Positions 50,721-53,589 of a DNA stretch of 64,000 bases are shown here, piece after piece. Position numbers and translations under genes: made by a program. The notes under the pieces are model-generated. The model was not told the DNA's origin and ran no database searches. It was given only the letters and a program-made list of their open reading frames with translations. The stretch covers positions 62,001 through 126,000 of the forward strand of contig NZ_DATIND010000044.1 in NCBI RefSeq assembly GCF_035474595.1, written 5' to 3'. How positions within the stretch are numbered: position 1 is the stretch's first letter; each line of letters starts with the position of its first letter. This DNA comes from Longimicrobium sp. (GTDB lineage: Bacteria; Gemmatimonadota; Gemmatimonadetes; Longimicrobiales; Longimicrobiaceae).

Positions 50721-51056
50721 CTACCCGTTCCTGATTACCTCGATCACGCGTTCCACCACCCGGCTGCGCGCTTCCGCGCGAAGGACGCCTGCGGTTTTCA
50801 CCACGAGCGAATCGTGCGCGGTAAAGAGCTTGCCCGGTCGAGCGTAACTGGTTCTCTGCAGCGATCCAGACTCGAAATCACCCTGTGCCAGCTCGATAGC
50901 GGAATTATCCGCATAGGCGTTGCTTGTGACCTGACACAGGATGAAGTCGTTCCGGCCGGCGCTGGCAAGGACGACTGCGGGGCGAAGTTTCGACTGGCTG
51001 AGATCTGAAAACGGAAAGGGGACGAGGACTACTTCTCCGGCTGAAGGTGTTCCCAC
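50721..51056 (-). CDS. PemK/MazF-family toxin
   Basis: A 111-residue endoribonuclease-like toxin. The MazF fold is seen in GEVVLVPFPFSDLSQSKLRP followed by AVVLASAG, then FILCQVTSNA and TSYARPGKLFTAHDSLVVK. The N-terminal PFPFSD-xxxxKxRPxVVL signature is diagnostic. GTG at 51056 overlaps the antitoxin end by 28 bp. Family members cleave single-stranded mRNA at short sequence sites. Confidence 0.85.
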   Translation of the reverse strand: MGTPSAGEVVLVPFPFSDLSQSKLRPAVVLASAGRNDFILCQVTSNAYADNSAIELAQGDFESGSLQRTSYARPGKLFTAHDSLVVKTAGVLRAEARSRVVERVIEVIRNG

Positions 51057-51247
51057 GCGGCATCCTCCTCTTCGCGGTTCCAATCTTCGGCAAGGGCTGC
51101 CTCGCTCAGGAGCGCGGTAAGATTAGGGTCCTCTGCGGCCTCGTCCAGGATCGTGACGAGTGCGCGCCGCGGCTCCGGGAGGCTGACATCTTCCAGCAGT
51201 CGAACATGGCCGCCGGATTCGACAACTGCTTCAACGGTGCGCGGCAT
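51029..51247 (-). CDS. Antitoxin of the MazF-like module
   Basis: A 72-residue acidic protein: an N-terminal SpoVT/AbrB-like strand segment (MPRTVEAVVESGGHVRLLED) and a highly acidic C-terminal tail that would block the toxin. ATG at 51247 is 5 bp after GGAGG; an ATG immediately before it is too close. A palindrome lies 26 bp upstream, a likely autoregulatory operator. Confidence 0.75.
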   Translation of the reverse strand: MPRTVEAVVESGGHVRLLEDVSLPEPRRALVTILDEAAEDPNLTALLSEAALAEDWNREEEDAAWEHLQPEK

Positions 51248-51272
51248 CATTTCCTCCCTCATCCGAGTTACC

Positions 51273-51290
51273 GTGCAAGAATACTTGCAC
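51273..51290. promoter_or_regulatory. Perfect palindrome upstream of antitoxin
   Basis: GTGCAAG-AATA-CTTGCAC, a 7-bp perfect dyad 26 bp before the antitoxin ATG and 45 bp before the opposite-strand leader promoter. A typical position for toxin-antitoxin autorepression. Confidence 0.6.
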
Positions 51291-51334
51291 ATGAAAGATG
51301 CCATACCCAACGAGATTAGCCAAGTTCGGATGCC

Positions 51335-51363
51335 TTGCGCGCTTCCGGGGCATCCGGTATCCT
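51335..51363 (+). promoter_or_regulatory. Sigma70-type promoter for leader peptide operon
   Basis: TTGCGC (51335-51340) and TATCCT (51358-51363) with a 17-bp spacer. The predicted +1 falls on or next to the A of the ATG at 51371, so the leader mRNA would be leaderless. Confidence 0.6.
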
Positions 51364-51370
51364 CCGCGCC

Positions 51371-51487
51371 ATGCCGAACCACGCCTGCACGATGCGGATG
51401 CGCTGTTGCTGGTGTCTCCTCCACGCGGAGGGGGCGGGCGGCGGCGTGCGCGCGAGGCGGCGAACCGGCATGATCCGGCGGGGGTAA
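51371..51487 (+). CDS. Cys-rich attenuator leader peptide
   Basis: A 38-residue reading frame MPNHACTMRMRCCWCLLHAE... with four cysteines, three of them in CCWC at residues 12-15. It is followed by a terminator (51516-51554) ahead of the ATP-grasp gene. This is the layout of a cysteine attenuation leader as described for sulfur genes of actinobacteria: ribosomes stalling at Cys codons when cysteine is low would prevent the terminator. A later in-frame ATG at 51398 directly precedes the CCWC run. It has no homologue I can name; the conclusion rests on layout. Confidence 0.6.
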   Translation: MPNHACTMRMRCCWCLLHAEGAGGGVRARRRTGMIRRG

Positions 51488-51515
51488 CAGCCCCGAGCCC
51501 CACGACGGCAATCCG

Positions 51516-51554
51516 GCCGCGGCTCCCTCAATCTGACGGAGCGGCGGCTTTTTT
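51516..51554 (+). terminator. Intrinsic terminator / attenuator
   Basis: GCCGCGGCTCC and GGAGCGGCGGC pair over 11 bp with one mismatch and an 11-nt loop, followed by TTTTTT. It ends 27 bp before the ATG of the ATP-grasp gene, so it must be read through for expression. Confidence 0.75.
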
Positions 51555-51580
51555 CTTTCGGCAGACCCGAGGAGATCCGA

Positions 51581-52540
51581 ATGCCCGCCACGCAGGAGCG
51601 CCCGATCGCGCTCTTCCACGAGCACCCCGACTGGTTCCGCCCGCTCTTCACCGAGCTGGAGCGGCGCGGCACGCCCTTCGTCCGCATCCCAGCGGCCGAG
51701 CACCGCTACGATCCCGAGGCGGCGCCGCCGTACTCGCTGGTGTTCAACCGCATGAGCCCGTCGGCGTACCTGCGCGGGGCGGGGAACGCCATCTTCTACA
51801 CCCAGAGCTGGCTGGACCACCTGGAGCGCAACGGCGTGCGCGTGGTGAACGGCCGCGGCGCGTACGCGGTGGAAACCAGCAAGGCGGTGCAGATCAACCT
51901 CCTCCGCCGTCTGGGGCTGCCGCATCCCAGGACGCGCGTCATCAACCACCCGTCGCAGGCGTTCGCCGCGGCCGAGGGGCTGCGCTACCCCATCGCCGTG
52001 AAGCCGAACATCGGCGGGAGCGGGGCGGGGGTGCGGCGCTTCGACTCGCCGGAGACTCTGCGGCAGGCGTCGGAGGACGGTTCGCTGGACCTGGGGATCG
52101 ATTCCGTCGGCCTGGTGCAGGAGTTCGTGCCCGCCGAGGAGGGGCGCATCACCCGCGTGGAGGTGCTGGGGGGCAAGTTCCTGTACGGCATCCGCATCTA
52201 CACCCCCGGCGACACCTTCGACCTGTGCCCCGCCGACGTCTGCCAGCGGGTGGACGGCGCCGAGCTGAACCGCATCGCCTGCGCGGTCGACGCGCCGAAG
52301 AACCGGCTGCGGGTGGAGGGCTACACCCCGCCCGCCGAGATCATCGGGCAGGTGGAGCGGATCATGGCCGAGGCGGGCATCGAGGTGGGCGGGGTAGAGT
52401 ACTTCGTGGACTCGCGCGACGGGAAGCACTACTTCTACGACGTGAACGCGCTGTCGAACTTCGTGGCCGACGCGCCGCAGGTGGTGGGCTTCGACCCGTT
52501 CCAGCGGCTGGCCGACTACCTGGAAGCGGAGGCCCGCTGA
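51581..52540 (+). CDS. RimK-type ATP-grasp enzyme
   Basis: A 319-residue ATP-dependent carboxylate-amine/thiol ligase fold. The substrate domain covers about 1-105; ATP-grasp motifs follow: YPIAVKPNIGGSGAGVRRFD (about 131-150), LVQEFVPAE, and the metal-binding end GVEYFVDSRDGKHYFYDVNA followed by LSNF. A GAGGAGAT site precedes the ATG. It overlaps the flavin monooxygenase start (TGATG), so both are co-translated. The product is unknown; RimK-like enzymes add amino acids to peptides or other acids. Confidence 0.85.
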   Translation: MPATQERPIALFHEHPDWFRPLFTELERRGTPFVRIPAAEHRYDPEAAPPYSLVFNRMSPSAYLRGAGNAIFYTQSWLDHLERNGVRVVNGRGAYAVETSKAVQINLLRRLGLPHPRTRVINHPSQAFAAAEGLRYPIAVKPNIGGSGAGVRRFDSPETLRQASEDGSLDLGIDSVGLVQEFVPAEEGRITRVEVLGGKFLYGIRIYTPGDTFDLCPADVCQRVDGAELNRIACAVDAPKNRLRVEGYTPPAEIIGQVERIMAEAGIEVGGVEYFVDSRDGKHYFYDVNALSNFVADAPQVVGFDPFQRLADYLEAEAR

Positions 52541-53589
52541 TGCGCTTCGGCTACTGGATGCCCGTGTTCGGCGGGTGGCTGCGCAACGTGGACGACGAGG
52601 GGATGGAGGCCAGCTGGGAGTACGTGAGCCGCCTGGCCCGCCGCGGCGAGGAGATCGGGTTCGACCTGACGCTGATCGCCGAGCTCTTCCTGAACGACAT
52701 CAAGGGCGCCGACGCGCCCACGCTGGAGGCGTGGTCCACCGCGGCGGCGCTGGCGGCGGTCACGAAGACGCAGGAGATCATGGTGGCGGTGCGGCCGACG
52801 TTCCACCCGCCGGTGATCTTCGCCAAGCAGGCGGCCAACATCGACCGCATCAGTGGCGGGCGGCTGTCGCTGAACGTGGTCAGCAGCTGGTGGGCGACCG
52901 AGGCGCGGAAGTACGGCGTGCAGTTCGACGTGCACGACGACCGCTACGCCCGCACCCGCGAGTGGCTGGAGGTGGTGAACGGCGTGTGGTGCAGTCCGTC
53001 GTTCACGCACGAGGGGCGATACTACAAGGTGGATGAGGCCGTGCTGGAGCCCAAGCCCGCCTCGCGCCCGCGGCCGACGATCTACGCCGGCGGCGAATCT
53101 CCCGCGGCCAAGGAGATGATCTCGTCGATGTGCGACGGGTTCCTGACGCACGGCGACCCGCCGGAGAACATCGCGCCGAAGGTGGCCGACATGCGCGCCC
53201 GCCGCGAGGCGCTGGGGCTGCCGCCGATGGTGTTCGGCGCCGCGGGCTACGCCATCGTCCGTCCCACGGAAGCCGAGGCGAAGCGCGAGCGGGAGCGCAT
53301 CACCGACGTGTCGAGCGGGAACGCGTACCACAGCTACCAGGACTGGCTGAACAACACGCAGCTGGAGCAACGGGTGAGCCTGGAGGACTACTCGGTTTCC
53401 AATCGCGGGCTGCGCACCGGCCTGGTCGGCACGCCGGAGCAGGTGGCCGAGCGGCTGATCGCGCTCGAAGAGGCGGGGCTGGACCTGGTCCTCCTCCAGT
53501 TCTCGCCGCAGCTGGAGGAGATGGAGCGCTTCGCCGAGGAGGTCATCCCCCTCGTGAACGGAAGCCACACCGAGGCCGTCGCGGCCTGA
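52540..53589 (+). CDS. LLM-class flavin-dependent monooxygenase (SfnG/SsuD-like)
   Basis: A 349-residue TIM-barrel flavin monooxygenase. It begins MRFGYWMPVFGGWLRN, with barrel blocks ISGGRLSLNVVSSWWATEAR and EGRYYKVDEAVLEPKP, and phosphate-site YAGGESPAAKE. These resemble dimethylsulfone (SfnG) or alkanesulfonate (SsuD) monooxygenases that release sulfite for cysteine synthesis. This fits the Cys-rich leader upstream. There is no flavin reductase or transporter in the window, so the substrate is open. Confidence 0.84.
   Translation: MRFGYWMPVFGGWLRNVDDEGMEASWEYVSRLARRGEEIGFDLTLIAELFLNDIKGADAPTLEAWSTAAALAAVTKTQEIMVAVRPTFHPPVIFAKQAANIDRISGGRLSLNVVSSWWATEARKYGVQFDVHDDRYARTREWLEVVNGVWCSPSFTHEGRYYKVDEAVLEPKPASRPRPTIYAGGESPAAKEMISSMCDGFLTHGDPPENIAPKVADMRARREALGLPPMVFGAAGYAIVRPTEAEAKRERERITDVSSGNAYHSYQDWLNNTQLEQRVSLEDYSVSNRGLRTGLVGTPEQVAERLIALEEAGLDLVLLQFSPQLEEMERFAEEVIPLVNGSHTEAVAA

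Follow-up and report, generated by a model that had tools for sequence, protein, structure and literature searches.

What is the function of a short, cysteine-rich open reading frame (ORF) and a terminator-like hairpin located in front of an operon encoding an ATP-grasp ligase and a flavin-dependent monooxygenase in Longimicrobium sp.? The sequence-only reading of the window (the whole 64,000-nucleotide stretch of DNA analyzed here, from a 6.57-Mb draft genome) had proposed cysteine-dependent, ribosome-mediated attenuation. This proposal is supported by the conserved leader, the terminator, the leaderless promoter geometry and a predicted antiterminator pairing that was absent from that reading and was found here. 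Judging from the sequences, the site is very probably a ribosome-mediated, cysteine-responsive transcription attenuator of the operon for the ATP-grasp protein and the SfnG-like monooxygenase. The features of the locus are listed below, with the evidence for each.

51335..51340, + strand: -35-like element TTGCGC (sequence; TTG at such spacing before 17 of 42 leaders)
51358..51363, + strand: -10-like element TATCCT of the leaderless type, 7 nt 5' of the leader ATG (sequence; 17 of 42 loci)
51371..51487, + strand: leader ORF of 38 codons, peptide MPNHACTMRMRCCWCLLHAEGAGGGVRARRRTGMIRRG (sequence; counterparts in orthologues of the order and in Acidobacteriota)
51404..51415, + strand: TGT TGC TGG TGT codons (CCWC), presumed stall site (sequence; TGT enrichment in leaders)
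51416..51422, + strand: region 1, CTCCTCC, predicted to base-pair with the beginning of region 2 (GGAGG..) (RNA fold of 51416-51560)
51427..51443, + strand: region 2, predicted antiterminator arm GGAGGGGGCGGGCGGCG, within the leader ORF (duplex with region 3; permutation test)
51515..51530, + strand: region 3, terminator 5' arm and predicted partner of region 2 (duplex and fold calculations)
51534..51554, + strand: region 4, terminator 3' arm and T6 tract (sequence, fold; conservation among orthologues)
51581..52540, + strand: ATP-grasp ligase gene, RimK/LysX/ArgX-type fold, first in the operon (profile and structure matches)
52540..53589, + strand: SfnG-like flavin-dependent (LLM) monooxygenase gene (start overlaps the ATP-grasp stop; adjacency across phyla)

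The leader ORF extends from the ATG at 51371 to the UAA stop ending at 51487, with Cys at residues 6, 12, 13 and 15 and Met at residues 8 and 10. The 38-codon frame with CCWC at residues 12-15 and the 11-bp terminator with T6 ahead of the ATP-grasp gene, both pointed out in the sequence-only reading, are present (the terminator, at 51515-51554). The hairpin consists of 11 bp (6+5, with one mismatch; 51515-51549, -24.4 kcal/mol), with T6 at 51549-51554, and the AGGAG ribosome-binding site of the operon is located at 51570-51574. The 38-aa leader peptide had no match in NCBIfam or Pfam, and no Rfam family scored above the cut-off at the site, the sole match being a sub-threshold isrK on the terminator. 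Divergent from the attenuator, a PemK/MazF-like toxin gene (Pfam PF02452) occupies 50721-51256 on the minus strand; a small ORF upstream overlaps this gene, and the two likely form a toxin-antitoxin pair.

The window alone yields modest statistics: compared to dinucleotide shuffles, the Cys cluster in its own upstream region has a p value of 0.015, and the pairing of regions 2 and 3 a p value of 0.03. Conservation among orthologues is decisive and establishes the leader and the terminator as real. The sequence-only reading had staked its proposal on conserved Cys codons and a conserved terminator upstream of orthologous ATP-grasp genes, and both are kept. Among 27 ATP-grasp loci of the same order (53-100% protein identity), a Cys/Met-rich leader was found in 26 (in L005, by eye), for example, MSNRAPMCMCCCP, MTSRAQMMCCCMC, MSCMCMCCCMC and MTPKICPRMCCCICM, and a hairpin with a T tract precedes the operon in nearly all. 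The sole exception with respect to the leader is L006, where the hairpin stands without a clear leader; L003 has a plain leader, and the scan detected no terminator there. At least three Cys within 8 codons occur in 22 of the 27 orthologues versus 2.5% of shuffles (1 of 27 on the antisense strand), and at least four occur in 15 versus 0.07% of shuffles (antisense strand, none of 27). The CCWC motif as such, however, is not kept among the orthologues; what they share is the clustering of Cys codons and of Met codons.

Because the loci were picked by Cys content, the Cys share near the cluster (42%, greater than the 19% of Met) is inflated and is not a test in itself. The enrichment of Met and of the TGT codon is not directly touched by this choice. 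Met accounts for 19% of the residues near the Cys cluster versus 3.3% elsewhere in the leader (Fisher p 2e-13), and TGT for 82 of 156 Cys codons in leaders versus 5 of 98 in ATP-grasp genes (p 9e-17), p values that are optimistic because related sequences are not independent. Several leaders contain Cys and few Met codons (e.g., L038 and L066).

The pair of -35 and -10 elements with 17-bp spacing indicated in the sequence-only reading was recovered (TTGCGC at 51335-51340 and TATCCT at 51358-51363). This promoter is weak compared to the consensus, with 7 of 12 positions matching, and strict promoter and terminator scanners reported neither a promoter nor a terminator in 50800-52000. Across the loci, the geometry tested (TTG, 17-22 nt, TANNNT, 4-10 nt, ATG) is found at 17 of 42 leaders versus 0.17 expected, and a Shine-Dalgarno (SD)-like motif precedes just one of the 42. 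Thus, going by promoter geometry and the scarcity of SD-like motifs, the leader transcript is likely to be leaderless.

Several calculations point to an antiterminator that competes with the terminator. The predicted duplex of regions 2 and 3 in the window has an energy of -28.4 kcal/mol (-30.1 in a second calculation); the fold of 51427-51540, in which region 4 is incomplete, pairs regions 2 and 3, whereas a fold starting at 51460 yields the terminator. Across 39 loci, the pairing of the stretch following the Cys codons with the 5' arm of the terminator had a mean z of -1.29, with p<=0.05 in 12 loci and p>0.05 in 27; in L026 and L081, the test detected no such pairing. For 31 loci, with near-copies taken out, own-locus and swapped-locus pairing were compared in a permutation test, in which the sum reached a z of -5.2 and none of 20,000 permutations was as low. 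In the loci compared, region 2 usually starts 5-25 nt past the last Cys codon, within the leader frame. Its core is read in frames 0, 1 and 2 in 9, 4 and 10 loci, respectively, and is therefore kept as RNA, not as peptide. The leader stop is separated from the terminator by a median of 29 nt, so that a ribosome at the stop would cover region 2 and fall short of region 3.

The elements, their spacing, their conservation and the complementarity of regions 2 and 3 are evident from the sequences; the start site, stalling, termination and the response to cysteine would follow in a mechanism that we infer from them. Transcription would begin at or near the leader AUG, with the ribosome trailing the RNA polymerase, and the sensor would read charged Cys-tRNA and, possibly, Met-tRNA as well. 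When cysteine is ample, the ribosome would reach the UAA at 51487 and mask region 2 (51427-51443), region 3 would pair with region 4, and transcription would end at about 51554. When cysteine is scarce, the ribosome would stall at UGU UGC UGG UGU and leave region 2 exposed; region 2 could then capture region 3 (-28 to -30 kcal/mol versus -24 kcal/mol for the terminator), resulting in read-through into the operon. The window folds are in line with this scheme, with translation to the stop predicted to favour termination and stalling at the Cys codons to favour read-through.

The ATP-grasp protein of the operon showed weak matches to RimK-type models, and its AlphaFold2 model (pLDDT 90.2) had ArgX and LysX as the best PDB matches; the graspetide ligase PsnB was matched in the fold search, too. 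For the LLM protein, the nearest PDB entries were 3rao and 8vw6, the latter deposited as alkanesulfonate monooxygenase. The sequence-only reading had likened this enzyme to SfnG and SsuD. The resemblance holds, in that the LLM superfamily is shared with the dimethylsulfone monooxygenase SfnG and with SsuD and MsuD, and 8t0u, 7jv3 and 1m41 match; assignment to SfnG proper does not, because the protein scores 248.3 bits against a curated cut-off of 382.95 bits (TIGR04021, NCBIfam). A further difference from SfnG is that the gene is paired here with an ATP-grasp ligase gene. The operon might serve the salvage of organically bound sulfur.

Searching 84,980 species genomes yielded 80 further cassette loci, distributed over Gemmatimonadota, Acidobacteriota, Planctomycetota, Bacteroidota and Armatimonadota; the ATP-grasp gene has the LLM gene as its neighbour in almost every locus whose contig is long enough. 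The leader and terminator are present in Gemmatimonadota and Acidobacteriota (in L048, L049, L065, L068 and L101, both were read by eye), with MAMCMCCCICPGERPGLRTTS and MAMCMCMCCCARERNGGLSFS as acidobacterial examples. No leader was found at the Planctomycetota and most Bacteroidota cassettes. The same device, very probably a cysteine sensor, precedes the cassette in dozens of soil bacteria from at least two phyla.

Apart from a gene for an SsuE-like FMN reductase in some loci, there are no notable conserved neighbours beyond the two cassette genes. In L044 and L046, an extra gene precedes the ATP-grasp gene in the position of the SsuE-like gene of L035, the locus on which the SsuE-like assignment was made, and the leader and terminator are shifted to the 5' side of this extra gene. 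L033, L034, L035 and L037 have a gene directly 5' of the ATP-grasp gene as well (the SsuE-like one in L035), and no clear Cys leader within 1500 bases. One locus titled Cyanobacteria bacterium (L066) contains the leader MCTCACCCLEAPASG and a terminator that are close to those of the acidobacterial L038 and L040; probably, the bin was mislabelled or the locus was transferred.

Similar leaders occur at other sulfur genes. A cysK paralogue of the same genome (L162, G000:C80:87604-88491) is preceded by the leader MTNAARCCTCRC.. and a GC-rich hairpin; a like cysK leader, MTNAARCCTCRC.., with a hairpin is found in G008, and VNAACCLCCCRG with a terminator in G025. Cys leaders before the cysK paralogue were thus seen in L162 (G000:C80) and in two relatives (L161 and L156). 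Elsewhere in the same genome (G000:C4:24106-24481, L188:4106-4481), the leader MTFCTCPCW.., with a promoter and a terminator, and a second candidate behind it are located upstream of a gene for sulfate adenylyltransferase (NF003166) and of cysH, all in the same orientation, so that two candidate Cys leaders with terminators stand in tandem at this site. The cysK and sulfate-gene leaders are supportive only, because the pairing p values at these single loci are 0.08-0.24. In several relatives, no CysH or CysD matches were found, and organic sulfur may therefore be their source. A scan for Cys ORFs with terminators that covered about 2.0 Mb of the same genome detected 9 candidates, of which the two at the sulfate genes were taken further; other amino acids gave 4-16, and no regulon count is claimed because the Cys figure is at this background. 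A plain Cys-run pattern, with 1148 forward matches in the genome and no excess over the reversed pattern, was uninformative and was dropped.

The cassette is tied to sulfur independently, by SAM riboswitches on orthologous copies. SAM-I (RF00162) is located 5' of the cassette in two Pontibacter genomes (L051 and L059), SAM-II (RF00521) reaches the gathering score before the cassette in L082, L086 and L103, and in L067, L069 and L073, SAM-II scores 32-33 bits (cut-off 36). In the ATP-grasp tree, where L068 and L005 were scored as loci without a Cys leader, Cys and SAM-II types alternate within one starred 20-row clade. L103 combines the two: at L103:3655-3976, a SAM-II with its own hairpin is followed by a Cys leader and a terminator before the ATP-grasp gene, and this tandem may integrate SAM and cysteine signals.

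These observations bear on what else the Cys-rich ORF could be. That it arose by chance, next to a terminator that simply serves the preceding region, is a notion to which we give practically no credence: the modest statistics of the window (p 0.015 and 0.03), the silence of the strict scanners and a genome scan background that is alike for other amino acids would suit it, but the elements are conserved over the order and in a second phylum versus 0.07-2.5% in shuffles, so that the orthologues contradict it, and the preceding toxin-like gene is oppositely oriented. The ORF adjoins genes for a ligase and an oxidase, and PsnB is among the ATP-grasp fold matches, so one might take it for a graspetide-like RiPP precursor that the ATP-grasp ligase and the monooxygenase would modify. 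This is highly improbable, given that the peptides are unalignable outside the Cys/Met cluster, that past the Cys codons a conserved RNA segment and its surroundings occur in each of the three frames, that cysK and the sulfate adenylyltransferase region have similar leaders, and that in other phyla the cassette comes without the ORF, which a SAM riboswitch can replace. A graspetide precursor was accordingly rejected, as no core peptide is conserved next to the ATP-grasp gene and the cassette also occurs without the ORF.

Two further alternatives accept a regulatory leader. One is cysteine-responsive translational attenuation in the mycobacterial style, in which the downstream hairpin would play no part; mycobacteria do have leaderless polycysteine ORFs and the promoter here is of the leaderless type, too, but the hairpin and T tract are conserved and lie off the ribosome-binding site of the operon, and the 5' arm of the terminator is matched by a segment of the leader, which makes this mode of control very unlikely. 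The other holds that the leader senses mainly methionine, or slow translation in general, rather than cysteine. The Met enrichment near the Cys cluster and the SAM riboswitches on the same cassette in other relatives speak for it; against it, Cys exceeds Met near the cluster (even if the 42% is inflated by the choice of loci on Cys content), and leaders such as those of L038 and L066 have Cys and few Met codons. We consider this variant unlikely and retain cysteine-responsive transcription attenuation as the preferred reading.

The site has the sequence attributes of an attenuator: a short leader ORF in which codons for a single amino acid are clustered, an intrinsic terminator between the leader and the structural gene, and an antiterminator segment after the regulatory codons (at the level of the locus set, with p 0.03 in the window). 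Judged by the SfnG-like LLM enzyme, the cysK and sulfate adenylyltransferase leaders and the SAM riboswitches on orthologues, the genes downstream are part of the metabolism of the amino acid to be sensed. In the trp, his and leu attenuators, leader codons govern the choice between alternative 2:3 and 3:4 hairpins, the latter with a U tract. The same layout is predicted here, except that the codons are for Cys, where those leaders carry codons for the amino acid of their own pathway, and that region 2 is inside the leader ORF.

Among published transcriptional cases, the nearest is uORFC-8-2 of Rhodobacterales (Alphaproteobacteria), which is always located before cysS, with tandem Cys codons at positions 14-15 and an intrinsic terminator, and for which stalling at the Cys codons has been proposed (Brewer et al. 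2021, PMC8632094). Both have a Cys-codon uORF and an intrinsic terminator; unlike uORFC-8-2, the present leaders occur in other phyla, have the ATP-grasp/monooxygenase cassette, cysK or sulfate genes as targets, and show a leaderless-type promoter and Met and TGT enrichment. None of the 30 cysS upstream regions of relatives contained a Cys leader. The sequence-only reading had invoked attenuation known for actinobacterial sulfur genes. Cys leader peptides are indeed predicted there, but they represent a different device, whose Cys runs lie close to the stop and for which conservation of a terminator was not found (Seliverstov et al. 2005, PMC1262725), and in mycobacteria, leaderless polycysteine short ORFs are described as exerting translational control (Canestrari et al. 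2020, via PMC9031893 and PMC13236596). The leaderless-type start (here by promoter geometry), the Cys codons and the sulfur genes downstream are shared. In contrast to the actinobacterial leaders, those described here have their Cys codons well before the stop, which in the window follows CCWC by about 70 nt, and they conserve a terminator/antiterminator pair.

Mechanisms of this kind are already known, and what is provisionally new is the phyla, the target operon and the combination of a leaderless start with a terminator, along with the Met enrichment, the use of the rare Cys codon TGT and the exchange with SAM riboswitches. A literature search, with most subscription journals outside its range, found no paper joining Gemmatimonadota with leader peptide attenuation, and the sole match for Acidobacteria was a general survey. 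The locus provides a testable case of cysteine attenuation, predicted from sequence, in phyla with almost no annotated attenuators. Three kinds of RNA regulators allow a widespread two-gene cassette of Gemmatimonadota, Acidobacteriota, Planctomycetota and Bacteroidota to be assigned to sulfur metabolism, and leader attenuators and SAM riboswitches substitute for each other on the same operon in a single clade.

A broader scenario can be offered tentatively, as a possibility that we regard as rather doubtful in its entirety. The device might be a dual Cys/Met attenuator with slow TGT codons that governs a sulfur regulon of Gemmatimonadota and Acidobacteriota, is exchanged with SAM riboswitches and has organosulfur salvage as its main target. 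The ATP-grasp protein might then tag or protect an organosulfur compound (in a LysX/ArgX-like manner, with a carrier), and the SfnG-like enzyme might subsequently cleave the C-S bond.

In the two Pontibacter genomes (L051 and L059), SAM-I is followed by a short ORF with six or seven consecutive Cys codons at its end, directly before the stop, and no clear terminator was seen at this ORF. The SAM-I and the polycysteine ORF lie at about -472 to -242 relative to the ATP-grasp gene, and the ORF is possibly a separate device in Bacteroidota.
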